Shown: positions 1,993 through 6,446 of the stretch, piece after piece
Position numbering within the stretch: position 1 is the stretch's first letter
Layout: every line of letters starts with the position of its first letter
Assembly (NCBI GenBank): GCA_029856375.1
Contig: JAHQWX010000107.1
Coordinates: 1 to 6,508, forward strand
Source: Promethearchaeia archaeon
Lineage (GTDB): Archaea > Asgardarchaeota > Lokiarchaeia > Sigyniarchaeales > SOKP01
Direction of reading: 5' to 3'
Length of the DNA: 6,508 nt
Notes under the pieces: model-generated
What the model was told of the DNA's origin: nothing
Database searches by the model: none
The model's input: only the letters and a program-made list of their open reading frames with translations
Position numbers and translations under genes: made by a program

Positions 1993-2085
1993 GGACCCGT
2001 AGCCTAGCCTGGACAAGGCGTCGGACTTCTAGCACACAGTGTGGAAGAAATCCGACGATCGTGGGTTCAAATCCCATCGGGTCCA
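1993..2085 (+). tRNA. tRNA-Arg(UCU), intron-containing
   Basis: All arms fold. The acceptor stem GGACCCG (1993-1999) pairs with CGGGTCC (2078-2084), with discriminator A2085. The D stem is GCCT (2002-2005) with AGGC (2016-2019). The anticodon stem is TCGGA (2021-2025) with TCCGA (2051-2055). The T arm is GTGGG (2061-2065), loop TTCAAAT, CCCAT (2073-2077), with one G-U pair. The anticodon loop reads C32 U33 UCU A37, so the anticodon UCU (2028-2030) decodes AGA. An 18-nt intron (2032-2049) sits at the canonical 37/38 position; the mature tRNA is 75 nt. CCA is not encoded. G15 (2007) and C48 (2060) can form the Levitt pair, so G15 is a potential archaeosine site for the arcTGT in this window. 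Position 37 is A, so Trm5 would not methylate this tRNA. Confidence 0.96.
2032..2049 (+). other. Archaeal tRNA intron (bulge-helix-bulge)
   Basis: The 18-nt intron begins after A37. A 4-bp central helix forms between C32-U-U-C35 (2026-2029) and GAAG (2044-2047). It is flanked by two 3-nt bulges: UAG (2030-2032) on the 5' side and AAA (2048-2050) on the 3' side. Cutting after the second base of each bulge, as archaeal splicing endonuclease does, releases exactly 2032-2049. The rest of the intron closes a small hairpin, CAC (2033-2035) with GTG (2041-2043). This is a textbook symmetric hBHBh' motif. Confidence 0.92.
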
Positions 2086-3226: not shown

Positions 3227-4347
3227 ACATCTATTACAGTTAAATACTTATGAGGACTGTAATTCTTCACAACCTTTGTGTGAAAAATTTCGTCTATTTT
3301 ATGGTTCAAATCCCTTAATCTCGTCTTAAAATTATTTATTCCTTCTTCTAGGGGCTCTGGATCCTTAGTAATCTGATAAAAATGAATTATTCCCGCTCTC
3401 TTCTTTATTAAATAACACGCAACTTCTAAAAACTCGATTGAATTTTTAGGTAAATTCATGATTATCCTATCCGTATTATCTTTAAGCAGAATACCTAGTT
3501 CATTTTTTTCGGATAAGAGCTCTTTAGCATCCATTTGGAAGCAATGAACTTTACTTTCAACCTTATTTAATCTTACATTTTCCTTCAAATAATCAATTGC
3601 ATCGGGATTGATATCAATTGCATAGACATCGGCGTTGCATTTCTTAGCAATTTGTATAGAAAACGGTCCCACACCACAAAACATGTCCAAAACAATTTGA
3701 CTCTCTCTTATTCCAGAAGATGTAATTCTGTCCCTCTCGAATAGCAATCGCGGTGAGAAAAAGACTTTTTTCACATCTAATTTGAATATACAATCGTTTT
3801 CTTTGTGAACTGTTTCTGTTTTATTAAATCCCGATAAAAAGTCTAGTTCTCTCGTTCGATATATTCCTTCTCTTTTACTTTTTTTCTCAAATACAGAATT
3901 TATCGTTTGATTTACTTGTAATATTGCGTTAGCTATTTCAGATTTAAATTTTCCATATTCTTCTGGATCTTCAATTGCATTCTCAGGAAACTCGATGATT
4001 GCGATTTTGTGTGCCTTTTTCGACCCAATTATATCGATTGAACTTGGAATTAAATGAATATATTTCTGATCTATTTTATTCTTCAACGCTTCGTGCAAAT
4101 TTCTCGGTATGTAATCTTCGTTTTCTACGCCTACATCTGATACAATTTCCATAAATGGAAGATCTTCTATTTTATTAAGAATAGATTTTTCGCCATTAAT
4201 TTCTTTTTTTAGAGGGAATGAAATATGTGTCGCATCCCTTAGAATTTTATATCGCTTATCTATATAAGATTTACCTCCAAAAATCTTTTTGGAAAAATCT
4301 GCCTTTTCCTTTTCAATTTTCAAGTATTGAATTGTTTTTTCATCCAT
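3214..4347 (-). CDS. trm5: tRNA (guanine37-N1)-methyltransferase Trm5
   Basis: Trm5 transfers methyl from S-adenosylmethionine to N1 of G37 next to the anticodon, which prevents +1 frameshifting; in archaea this is also the first step toward wyosine. Numbering from the ATG at 4347 (377 residues): an N-terminal D1-like region with DKRYKI is followed by the characteristic D2 segment IPSSIDIIG (~101-109), then FSPRLLFERDR (197-207, the conserved SPR and ER). The Rossmann SAM loop is DMFCGVGPFS (221-230). D245 lies in AIDINP, D273 in MDAKEL, NLP is at 298-300 and YSPH at 363-366. Length and motif order match archaeal Trm5; I cannot tell the Trm5a, b and c subtypes apart. The ATG lies within ATGGATGA, so it overlaps the DUF371 stop, consistent with translational coupling. 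A TTG at 4359 would add four residues. No Shine-Dalgarno is seen. It is the last gene of the cluster. Confidence 0.94.
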   Translation of the reverse strand: MDEKTIQYLKIEKEKADFSKKIFGGKSYIDKRYKILRDATHISFPLKKEINGEKSILNKIEDLPFMEIVSDVGVENEDYIPRNLHEALKNKIDQKYIHLIPSSIDIIGSKKAHKIAIIEFPENAIEDPEEYGKFKSEIANAILQVNQTINSVFEKKSKREGIYRTRELDFLSGFNKTETVHKENDCIFKLDVKKVFFSPRLLFERDRITSSGIRESQIVLDMFCGVGPFSIQIAKKCNADVYAIDINPDAIDYLKENVRLNKVESKVHCFQMDAKELLSEKNELGILLKDNTDRIIMNLPKNSIEFLEVACYLIKKRAGIIHFYQITKDPEPLEEGINNFKTRLRDLNHKIDEIFHTKVVKNYSPHKYLTVIDVKIK

Positions 4348-4765
4348 TAGTATACTCAAAAGAAATTTTTATCTTACGACTCTCGTATTTTAATGCATTT
4401 AGAAGCTTTCTGCTTAACTCATTGCTCGATTTTGTACAATTTATTAAAACAGTTCTATTACAAATATAAGTGCTTTTTCTAAACACCAAATCGTGTTTAT
4501 TAGTTAAATATAATTTCTTATGTCCATATCCATAAAAAACTTCACTTAAATTTTGTACTTCAATAGTTACCTTTATTTTTTTTCCTTCTCTAATTGCATC
4601 TTTTAATTTTGCATTTAAATCAAAACAAGCTTTATCTGCATTAATACCTATTATGCAATCTCCTTTTCTTGTTAGAAATCCGTCTTTAGTTATTTCAATG
4701 GTTGTTTTATGAGTTCCTAAAATATTCTTGTGTCCATAGGCAAATATTGTTTCTAATGGAGCCAT
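4340..4765 (-). CDS. DUF371 family protein
   Basis: This is a 141-residue protein of the archaeal DUF371 family, recognised by AYGHKNI, GTHKTTIEIT, GDCIIGINADKA and the second YGYGHKKL block. The family has no established function. The sequence contains a clear internal duplication. Residues 10-70 align with 80-138: YGHK (10-13 and 80-83), INADKACFDLNAKLKDAI with INCTKSSNELSRKLLNAL (41-58 and 108-125), and KIKVTIEV with KIKISFEY (63-70 and 131-138). Two copies of a small beta-alpha-beta-like unit are implied. There is no membrane segment or signal peptide, so it should be cytoplasmic. The gene starts 25 nt after the arcTGT stop, and its TGA overlaps the Trm5 ATG. A role in tRNA modification or translation is inferred from context only. 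The first unit is much more family-like than the second, and the conserved His and Cys residues would be worth testing. Confidence 0.88.
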   Translation of the reverse strand: MAPLETIFAYGHKNILGTHKTTIEITKDGFLTRKGDCIIGINADKACFDLNAKLKDAIREGKKIKVTIEVQNLSEVFYGYGHKKLYLTNKHDLVFRKSTYICNRTVLINCTKSSNELSRKLLNALKYESRKIKISFEYTNG

Positions 4766-4790: not shown

Positions 4791-6431
4791 TTAATTATTT
4801 AGGAAAAAATTTAATATTGTCTGCAACGAATCGCTCACAATTAAATTGTCTTTGAAATATGTTTTCAAACGAGTTTGAAGTTTGTTGATTGGATGAATTA
4901 AGAAATCTGTTTTTTCGTTAAATTCATTGAGATAATCCTTAGGGATTAACAATCCACACTTCTCATAAAATTGTTTATATTTTTTAATAAATTCTATGGA
5001 TGCATTTAGTGTTTTCGTGTATATCTCGTCCGTTGAGTTTTGAAATGCAATTGATTCGTTTTGACCAAAGGGGTAAGAATCAATTAACTCTAAGGAAACG
5101 ATCCCAAAGAGTTCAGTCATAAAAAGAACGTGAATAAATTCTCTCTTTATTTCTTTAAAATCATTAATTGCGTTTAGCCATTTATTTACCGATGGAGAAT
5201 TTTCTCGTTTCGCGTCTAATTCAGGTAAAATAACCGCATATTTAACCGAAGTGGGCACGATATATTTGTCTTTTATATCCCGTAATTGCCTCTTAATTAT
5301 TGGGCGGTTGAGCGTATCCGAAGATATAAAGAAAAGGCCTCGTTTATTGTATCTCCGTTCATATTTTTCTATATATTGGGATTCGTTGAGCAGTAATTTC
5401 AATGCTTTGATTAAATTGGGGTGAGAGCGCGCTCTCGTTTCAACTAATTCCCAAAGAGCTCCATCTCTTATCGCTTCTCGTATCGTTCTTAATTCGGAAT
5501 AAGAAATATGTAGGTTGTGTTTCGCTATTAGTTCGGTTTTTAATTTTTTATCGAATAAATTTAATTCTTTAGGGGTAAAATTCGAGCAAACTGGACAATG
5601 GCACGGAAATTCTACTAAATCACTTAACTTTTTTGTTCCTGTCGATAATGTAAAATAGCGTTCGTCCCTTGCGTATAGTATGTAAGCAGCAGAATCCATT
5701 AAATCGCATCCACAGGCAACAGCTAAAGAGAAAAATTGTGGAAGTCCTAAGCCAAACATGTGCAATGGTTTATTTGGAGCAACTCTTTTTTTAACATTGA
5801 TAAAAACATCCACTGCTAAATCAAATCTGTAGTCGATAAATGTTTTAACGAGACCTCCAATTGCGTAAATACCGAAGTCTAATTTACTCATTTCTAATGT
5901 ACTCGTTTCTAATAAATCTTTGTATATAGAACCGTGAATTGGACCAATCCATTTAGACTGATCGCGTTTTCTTCGTTTAATGTTTTTTTTCGCTCTCTCA
6001 ATGTTTTTTAACACTTTTTCCTTTGCCAATTCATATGGATCGTCGAGCTGCACTGGAATGTCTAAAATAACAGGAAAATCCGAACCAATTTCTTCTTGAA
6101 ACCTTTCAATCTCTTTAGGTTCAATAGTTAAATCTTCCTTATACATATATTGTTGGAACGCACCAGAATCAGTAGCAATTAATCCATCGTAATTAAATAA
6201 TTCGTGAACGCCTACTTGTTTCGCTCTTTCCCTTAATTTCTCATCTTTATACATAATGTAAGCGTTAGTAAATATGCAATCAATCCCCAGTCTTTTCATC
6301 TCATAGGGAGTAATAATATTTTTTGAAGGGTGTACCACGGTAAATAAATTGGGGGTAATTAATTTCTTCCCATTAAATTCAATTTTTCCCAGTCTTGAGA
6401 GCCCGTCTGTTTCGAGTACTTCGAAGTTAAT
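4791..6431 (-). CDS. tgtA: Archaeosine tRNA-guanine transglycosylase (arcTGT), probable ATT start
   Basis: arcTGT exchanges G15 in the D-loop of archaeal tRNAs for preQ0, the precursor of archaeosine. Numbering from the proposed ATT start (546 residues): DSGAFQ (88-93) carries the conserved active-site Asp; MDSAAY carries D246, the expected nucleophile; the zinc site is C277-x-C279-x2-C282 plus H305. Identity and position match arcTGT, not ArcS, which lacks these. Residues ~390-490 resemble the domain shared with ArcS (GIVSLELIDSYPFGQNE). The C-terminal PUA domain usual in arcTGT is not apparent. Start choice: the first canonical start is GTG at 6338, but the 31 codons upstream stay open and encode a typical family N-terminus, with GLSRLGKIEFNGKK and ITPNLFTVVHP continuing into the core. 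No ATG, GTG or TTG occurs there. ATT at 6429-6431 sits 8 nt after GGGTGAT; ATA at 6435-6437 is too close to it. First gene of the cluster. Confidence 0.93.
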   Translation of the reverse strand: MNFEVLETDGLSRLGKIEFNGKKLITPNLFTVVHPSKNIITPYEMKRLGIDCIFTNAYIMYKDEKLRERAKQVGVHELFNYDGLIATDSGAFQQYMYKEDLTIEPKEIERFQEEIGSDFPVILDIPVQLDDPYELAKEKVLKNIERAKKNIKRRKRDQSKWIGPIHGSIYKDLLETSTLEMSKLDFGIYAIGGLVKTFIDYRFDLAVDVFINVKKRVAPNKPLHMFGLGLPQFFSLAVACGCDLMDSAAYILYARDERYFTLSTGTKKLSDLVEFPCHCPVCSNFTPKELNLFDKKLKTELIAKHNLHISYSELRTIREAIRDGALWELVETRARSHPNLIKALKLLLNESQYIEKYERRYNKRGLFFISSDTLNRPIIKRQLRDIKDKYIVPTSVKYAVILPELDAKRENSPSVNKWLNAINDFKEIKREFIHVLFMTELFGIVSLELIDSYPFGQNESIAFQNSTDEIYTKTLNASIEFIKKYKQFYEKCGLLIPKDYLNEFNEKTDFLIHPINKLQTRLKTYFKDNLIVSDSLQTILNFFLNN

Positions 6432-6439
6432 TTTTATTT

Positions 6440-6446
6440 ATCACCC
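6440..6446 (-). promoter_or_regulatory. Strong Shine-Dalgarno before the ATT start of arcTGT
   Basis: On the minus strand this reads GGGTGAT, which contains GGTGAT, a perfect match to the archaeal anti-Shine-Dalgarno. It is 8 nt from the ATT at 6431, whereas nothing similar precedes the GTG at 6338. It therefore decides the start in favour of the longer protein. The in-frame stop TAA at 6438-6440 overlaps the end of this site, so translation cannot begin further upstream in this frame. Confidence 0.7.

Follow-up and report, generated by a model that had tools for sequence, protein, structure and literature searches.

A probable AUU start codon behind a strong Shine-Dalgarno sequence in a Lokiarchaeial tRNA guanosine(15) transglycosylase gene, and recurrence of AUU, AUA and AUC at aligned gene starts in the same archaeal family

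The gene for tRNA guanosine(15) transglycosylase (arcTGT) of a Lokiarchaeial archaeon is, judging from its sequence, probably translated from a genuine near-cognate start codon, an AUU at position 6431, whose weakness would be compensated by a strong Shine-Dalgarno (SD) sequence. An AUU start had been proposed in a sequence-only reading of the same DNA, and the proposal is now supported by the homology of the start position, by the coding constraint on the codons that follow, by the SD, and by the recurrence of AUU, AUA or AUC (AUH) in one archaeal family, where four gene families have such a codon at their aligned start. The window analysed here is a whole contig of 6508 bp (C27), and belongs to a metagenome-assembled genome (MAG) of 2.54 Mb (G000; 503 contigs, 69.3% complete).

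The identity of the gene is given by TIGR00432 (461.1 bits against a curated cut-off of 350), with a further match to PF01702. Its product carries the CxCxxC...H pattern and the DSG/DSA aspartates (C277, C279, C282, H305, D88, D243 and D246, invariant in a 21-sequence alignment), both of them motifs of arcTGT enzymes. Numbered from the ATT, position 1 of the TIGR00432 profile falls on residue 3, and the alignment to the solved archaeal enzyme (1iq8) begins at residue 2. The minus strand from 6448 to 6419 reads TTGGGTGATA AATAAAAATT AACTTCGAAG, and the frame opens after the TAA with the codons ATA, AAA and ATT (Table 1). The sequence-only reading had given 31 open codons above the GTG at 6338; the count is 33, because ATA and AAA precede the ATT. 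Its statement that no in-frame ATG, GTG or TTG lies between the stop and this GTG, which is 31 codons downstream of the ATT, is borne out by the sequence. The ATA at 6437 was rejected as a start, being just 2 nt after GGTGAT. A distance of 77 nt separates the ATT from the end of the contig, which cuts off an upstream gene; in relatives, a same-strand ORF bearing SGTPGTGKT stands just upstream of arcTGT, and by this position the truncated gene likely encodes a GxPGxGK nucleotide-binding protein.

Table 1. Features of the arcTGT start region in the window, and inositol-1-phosphate synthase loci with no canonical start
Feature	Position or loci	Strand	Basis or remark
arcTGT (tRNA guanosine(15) transglycosylase) coding sequence	4791..6431	-	546 codons from ATT, plus stop; frame without internal stops
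Proposed AUU start codon	6429..6431	-	Homologous, by alignment, to the start codon of relatives
Shine-Dalgarno GGGTGAT (GGTGAT = 6445-6440)	6440..6446	-	8 nt before ATT; can pair with the 3′ end of the G001 (congener) 16S rRNA
A-rich 8-nt spacer, AAATAAAA	6432..6439	-	Sequence
In-frame stop TAA, closing the frame upstream	6438..6440	-	Sequence
GTG, start of database protein P0001 (515 aa)	6336..6338	-	Rejected: internal codon for V32
3′ end of upstream gene (NRLKEFFD, stop), cut by contig end	6482..6508	-	Sequence
Start-less inositol-1-phosphate synthase loci	L207, L249, L283, L290, L291, L293, L295, L296, L301	L207 minus	Start-region alignment

The position of the start was examined by aligning N-termini from 120 fetched arcTGT loci, three of which were unusable (L058 and L122, without a 5′ end, and L139, the wrong part); 63 were distinct once copies had been merged. 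A canonical ATG, TTG or GTG stands exactly on the codon of ATT 6431 in 49 of the 63, and within -6 to +2 codons of it in 12 more, for a total of 61. The two loci with no canonical start at this site are the window, with ATT, and isolate 9R3_44, a Lokiarchaeal MAG (G018; JAHLWP010000037.1, contig title cov_272.7), with ATA. The latter reads ATGAGGTGAATACTGA followed by ATA AAA TAT GAA, with a stop immediately before the ATA at the homologous codon, GAGGTGA 7 nt upstream, and a GTG seven codons on. Seven database arcTGT proteins of the 9R3_44 lineage (mutual identity 90-100%) are all called from codon +7, which is what the lack of a canonical start farther upstream would produce, with the limit that DNA was examined for one of them alone (P0109) and that a nearby upstream contig edge could mimic a start-less appearance. 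By this alignment, ATT 6431 is the homologous start codon of arcTGT. The codon itself is not conserved as AUH among congeners, being ATG in G001 and TTG in G002, G003 and G004, and beyond the window only 9R3_44 has an ATA. The sequence-only reading had held that an ATG at this site in close relatives would refute an AUU start. One congener does have it and three have TTG, which shows that the start site is fixed and that its codon varies; the single ATG also makes a one-base error in the window MAG the chief rival.

The same reading had pointed to a GGGTGAT 8 nt before the ATT and to the lack of an SD before the GTG, and in both it was correct. GGTGAT is complementary to ATCACC within GGATCACCTCC, the 16S rRNA 3′ end of congener G001 (a search of G000 itself found no 16S rRNA); no SD precedes GTG 6338 in the sequence. 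Paired with this 16S end, the leader of the window gives a duplex of -9.3 kcal/mol, against -5.8 for the TTG-started G003 and -0.1 for the ATG-started G001. Over the 63 loci, the median pairing by start codon is -2.6 kcal/mol for ATG (n = 50), -4.3 for GTG (n = 4), -5.6 for TTG (n = 7), -9.3 for ATT (n = 1) and -11.5 for ATA (n = 1), a compensation of weak codons by strong SDs like that reported, in the text available of PMC5622118, for GUG and UUG starts. In the sampled genome, 0.56% of 20,000 positions drawn at random are preceded by an SD match of at least 6 nt. As a separate observation on the 16S rRNA, the match is broken at model position 828/829 in G002, G003 and G004 (L242-L246), partly at contig ends, and is unbroken in G001; the break is either an intron or only an assembly break.

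Other AUH starts were sought in 2.07 Mb of DNA (437 kb of G000, 1.17 Mb of G004, 55 arcTGT neighbourhoods and 29 small-gene loci), with antisense shadow ORFs filtered out. Among 603 ORFs with start-marking partners, 583 have a canonical start and 20 have none (4 of 97 in G000, 4 of 118 in G004, 6 of 327 in the arcTGT loci and 6 of 61 in the small-gene loci). Seven of these 20 were counted as AUH with an SD (o11, o457, o4766, o4837, o5390, o5421 and o5507); the SD was not used for flagging ORFs, but it was used together with the alignment for picking the seven. The ATA of 9R3_44 falls outside the 20 because of the GTG seven codons on. Within G000, AUH is found in arcTGT (ATT) and in a 64-codon CxxC gene (ATC), 2 of the 97 testable genes. 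A DUF371 gene has ATA at its aligned start in L110 (19 of 19 votes on the start position) and in CP070805.1 (15 of 19), the latter a single-contig chromosome. The CxxC family also has AUH in G074 (ATA), G012 (ATT) and G032 (ATT), all with tied or minority votes, so that three of the four AUH cases in this small gene have split votes: in o5507 most votes go to an AAA (6 of 16), with the ATT two codons on (4 of 16), and the votes for o5390 and o5421 are tied.

Thirteen of the start-less ORFs were not counted as AUH. The alignment of o1255 (DnaK-like) ran above its ATG, o1608 carries the dnaG insert described below, o1017 has a possible ATT and a single distant partner, and o1719 perhaps an ACG; votes were weak or single for o1713, o2384, o4440, o4479, o5132 and o5227, and split for o5338, o5351 and o5360, copies of the small CxxC gene with an ATT near.

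The surveyed DNA holds several further peculiarities. An ORF from about 381047 of G004:C2 (plus strand) runs for 52 codons without a canonical start, with GAAGTGAG just before an ACG after the stop; an ACG start or a broken gene is possible. The CxxC proteins, of about 60-80 residues, are multi-copy (L141:589-780, plus strand, G000:C21, and relatives in L249-L277), have ATC, ATA or ATT often where other copies have ATG, and gave no match in searches of Pfam and NCBIfam. Within the window, the DUF371 gene and a Trm5-like gene overlap by 20 nt (4340-4359, minus strand), and in G004 they form a single open frame of 521 codons. An in-frame TGA precedes a conserved reading frame at L077:5076-5078 (plus strand, G000; VLVVG-TGA-YPGEC) and is also present in G004; it is consistent with a codon for selenocysteine in a hydrogenase subunit of the MvhD type.

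Inositol-1-phosphate synthase (PF01658) was noticed because its G004 copy was flagged as start-less (L207:7461-8993, minus strand, G004:C3), and further loci were then collected by homology. Nine of the 21 family loci have ATA (G002, G003 and G004) or ATT (G031, G058, G061, G063, G073 and G081) with no canonical start in frame within the fetched stretch; nine are canonical, with ATG or TTG at the homologous codon, and three are ambiguous, with a GTG or ATG 1-3 codons upstream. AUH spans three genera at this gene. The start region of G061 reads GAGGTGAATAATT followed by ATT AGT AAA ATA. All of 20 loci chosen from other families of the phylum have an in-frame canonical start, in two of them 14 codons upstream. 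At inositol-1-phosphate synthase, unlike arcTGT, the non-canonical codon is conserved among orthologues. Because it is shared by three genera and by several assemblies, sequencing error is ruled out as a general explanation of AUH starts. The G004 protein also has a C-terminal part, about residues 371-511, whose counterparts in many genomes are separate ORFs.

The SDs of these genes are stronger than usual. Median pairing for 17 AUH starts is -7.4 kcal/mol, as against -3.6 for 67 canonical starts of G000 and -2.4 for 67 of G004 (P = 6e-9, or P = 1e-5 with nine gene lineages), values of P that are descriptive only, since the 17 starts are non-independent and seven were chosen partly for having an SD. 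A match of at least 5 nt is present at 14 of the 17 AUH starts, at 15 of the 67 canonical G000 starts, and at 3.5% of random positions.

These results bear on the possibility that sequencing, assembly or strain mixture has given the contig an ATT where the true codon is ATG. Such an error would be easiest to accept in a MAG of 503 contigs, at a site so close to a contig end, and with a congener that carries ATG. Against it, AUH recurs at the aligned starts of other genes and in other assemblies, including the three genera at inositol-1-phosphate synthase; the same arcTGT codon is ATA in a contig titled cov_272.7; and the SD is strong in the window, whereas that of the ATG congener is almost without pairing energy. 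Moreover, AUH is found in 2 of 97 testable genes of G000, while gross errors in its sampled contigs are few, with 78 aligned genes (28,734 codons) giving four early 3′ ends and a single split, which reflects a true fusion in G004. On balance we consider an error at this codon unlikely.

That the start lies farther upstream, separated from the gene by an indel, a frameshift or an intron, is very improbable. A GTG does exist at 6444-6442, which the gain or loss of one base in the A run would bring into frame, and dnaG of G000 carries an intron-like insert; yet no coding sequence is missing, given that the genes of relatives begin at the ATT codon itself, no ATG lies between the upstream gene and the ATT, and folding of the 90-nt leader yields only -9.5 kcal/mol (no shuffle control). 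The dnaG gene (DNA primase, NF003108) is itself of note, being interrupted after ...DIVGAIFGQ by 29 nt (L070:2118-2146, minus strand, G000:C7) and at the same place in G004 by 32 nt (L188:2590-2621, plus strand, G004:C2). The inserts contain stop codons, and each has a length of 2 mod 3, in agreement with the change of frame. On sequence they look like a tiny archaeal mRNA intron; their minimum-energy folds have no clear bulge-helix-bulge. In the window, a tRNA gene at 1993-2085 (plus strand), found by Rfam (58.6 bits) and missed by ARAGORN, has 93 nt against 71 model positions, which suggests that it contains an intron.

The codons above GTG 6338 evolve as protein-coding sequence. Between the window and four congeners, codons 2-31 differ at 6-8 first, 1-2 second and 14-18 third codon positions, with pN of 0.11-0.14 and pS of 0.66-0.85 (synonymous sites near saturation), similar to codons 32-262 (pN 0.15-0.16, pS 0.70-0.71). 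D9, L11, R13, T26 and P27, all upstream of the GTG, are invariant in the 21-sequence alignment, as is V32, which the GTG encodes. This pattern marks the 30 codons that follow ATT 6431 as protein-coding and under purifying selection, in keeping with the earlier description of them as an arcTGT N-terminus. A start at GTG 6338, with the 31 codons above untranslated or vestigial, would agree with its being the first canonical start and with the database protein P0001, and is the least credible reading of all, given an invariant valine inside the family with five invariant residues upstream, constraint equal to that on the rest of the gene, a GTG without an SD, and the alignment of 1iq8 from residue 2. 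Among the peptides predicted from residues 2-31 of the AUU-started protein is INFEVLETDGLSR without its first residue.

Initiation at the AUU would begin with binding of the 30S subunit through GGUGAU:AUCACC pairing, the SD 8 nt upstream holding the subunit in place while the initiator Met-tRNAi would read AUU as a near-cognate of AUG, with a third-base mismatch in the P site. The discrimination of aIF1 against non-canonical start codons, described in Sulfolobus work cited in PMC8211752, would be overcome often enough to yield, at a low level, a protein beginning Met-Asn-Phe-Glu. Loss of aIF1 was rejected as a cause of lax starts, the SUI1 family being present in 36 of 44 genomes, including G000. 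The weak codon would be expected to lower the yield of arcTGT, by analogy with what has been measured for AUU and AUA starts in Staphylococcus. The suggestion of the sequence-only reading that the AUU could throttle the level of the enzyme agrees with such bacterial measurements. Since the congeners have ATG or TTG at this codon, we read the arcTGT AUU as a drifting, SD-compensated weak start that may set a low enzyme level rather than as a feedback switch, and the three TTG congeners suggest that the gene tolerates weak starts. Autoregulation like that of infC was rejected, since the product gives no reason for it; we know of no link of arcTGT to translation initiation.

Similar starts are known in bacteria. 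The sequence-only reading had named Escherichia coli infC as the known example of an AUU start, which is too narrow, as pcnB of E. coli and cvfC1 of Staphylococcus aureus have one too. Both infC (PMC5472188) and pcnB (by a title cited in PMC13009471) are chromosomal genes with an AUU start and weak initiation, as proposed for arcTGT; the infC codon, however, serves feedback of IF3 on itself (PMC5472188), and no such loop is known for arcTGT, a tRNA-modifying enzyme. In S. aureus, according to the portions available of PMC13009471, AUU and AUA starts with an extended SD give about 10% of the output of AUG in poor medium, with one start reaching as much as 30% when the medium was rich. The S. 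aureus genes cvfC1 (AUU), ccpN, citZ and infC (AUA) resemble the present ones in that the AUU or AUA was missed by annotation and is preceded by an unusually strong SD (PMC13009471); the cvfC1 product is small and may have a zinc-finger fold, and in this it is like one of the gene families here. Some of those starts, that of cvfC1 among them, are conserved among relatives, whereas the congeners of the window genome do not share the arcTGT codon; they are also bacterial, established by ribosome profiling and reporters, and subject to IF3-type proofreading (PMC13009471), in contrast to the archaeal cases, with aIF1, aIF1A and aIF2, known from sequence alone. The GTC start of Streptomyces sigR, in the text seen of PMC5472188, is likewise a non-canonical codon missed by annotation whose weakness sets the protein level, but it differs in not being AUH, in being repressed by IF3 and in belonging to a conserved regulatory circuit.

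The closest archaeal parallel is the tubulin AtubA of Kariarchaeaceae (Heimdallarchaeia), also Asgard archaea, for which a too-short database protein, an upstream ATT and a plausible ribosome-binding site led to a start inferred from homology, much as for arcTGT; it concerns one gene in one MAG of a different class from Lokiarchaeia (PMC13394414, in the part available). In the open-licence PMC literature searched for AUU, AUA or non-AUG starts in archaea, and seen in part, this ATT was the sole Asgard case found. The study of PMC5622118, which is based on annotated starts, counted a single switch to AUU among 61,358 ancestral AUG starts. A near-cognate AUU or AUA with a strong SD is thus known in bacteria and the window gene is one more member of this class; what appears new, against the literature searched, is the recurrence in Lokiarchaeia, with a case that spans genera.

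For the family as a whole, the evidence leans, if by a little, towards AUH as a regular class of start in one family of Lokiarchaeia, used by of the order of 1% of genes. These codons would be third-base near-cognates of AUG, driven by strong SD pairing of the GGTGA type, and would have been exchanged for ATG and TTG, and the reverse, in the course of evolution. At inositol-1-phosphate synthase they would have been kept across genera as a built-in setting for low output, and annotation would get such starts wrong systematically. Gene-finders restricted to ATG, GTG and TTG would miss the true starts of such Lokiarchaeal genes. If the AUH starts are true, the N-termini of some Asgard proteins are missing from their annotation, as in the database arcTGT, which is short by 31 residues, and the choice of start codons in archaea would be laxer than the AUG, GUG and UUG given in a review (PMC7531240, as far as its text was available). 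These genes would then also form a natural set on which to test the inspection of the third start-codon base by aIF1, aIF1A and aIF2.
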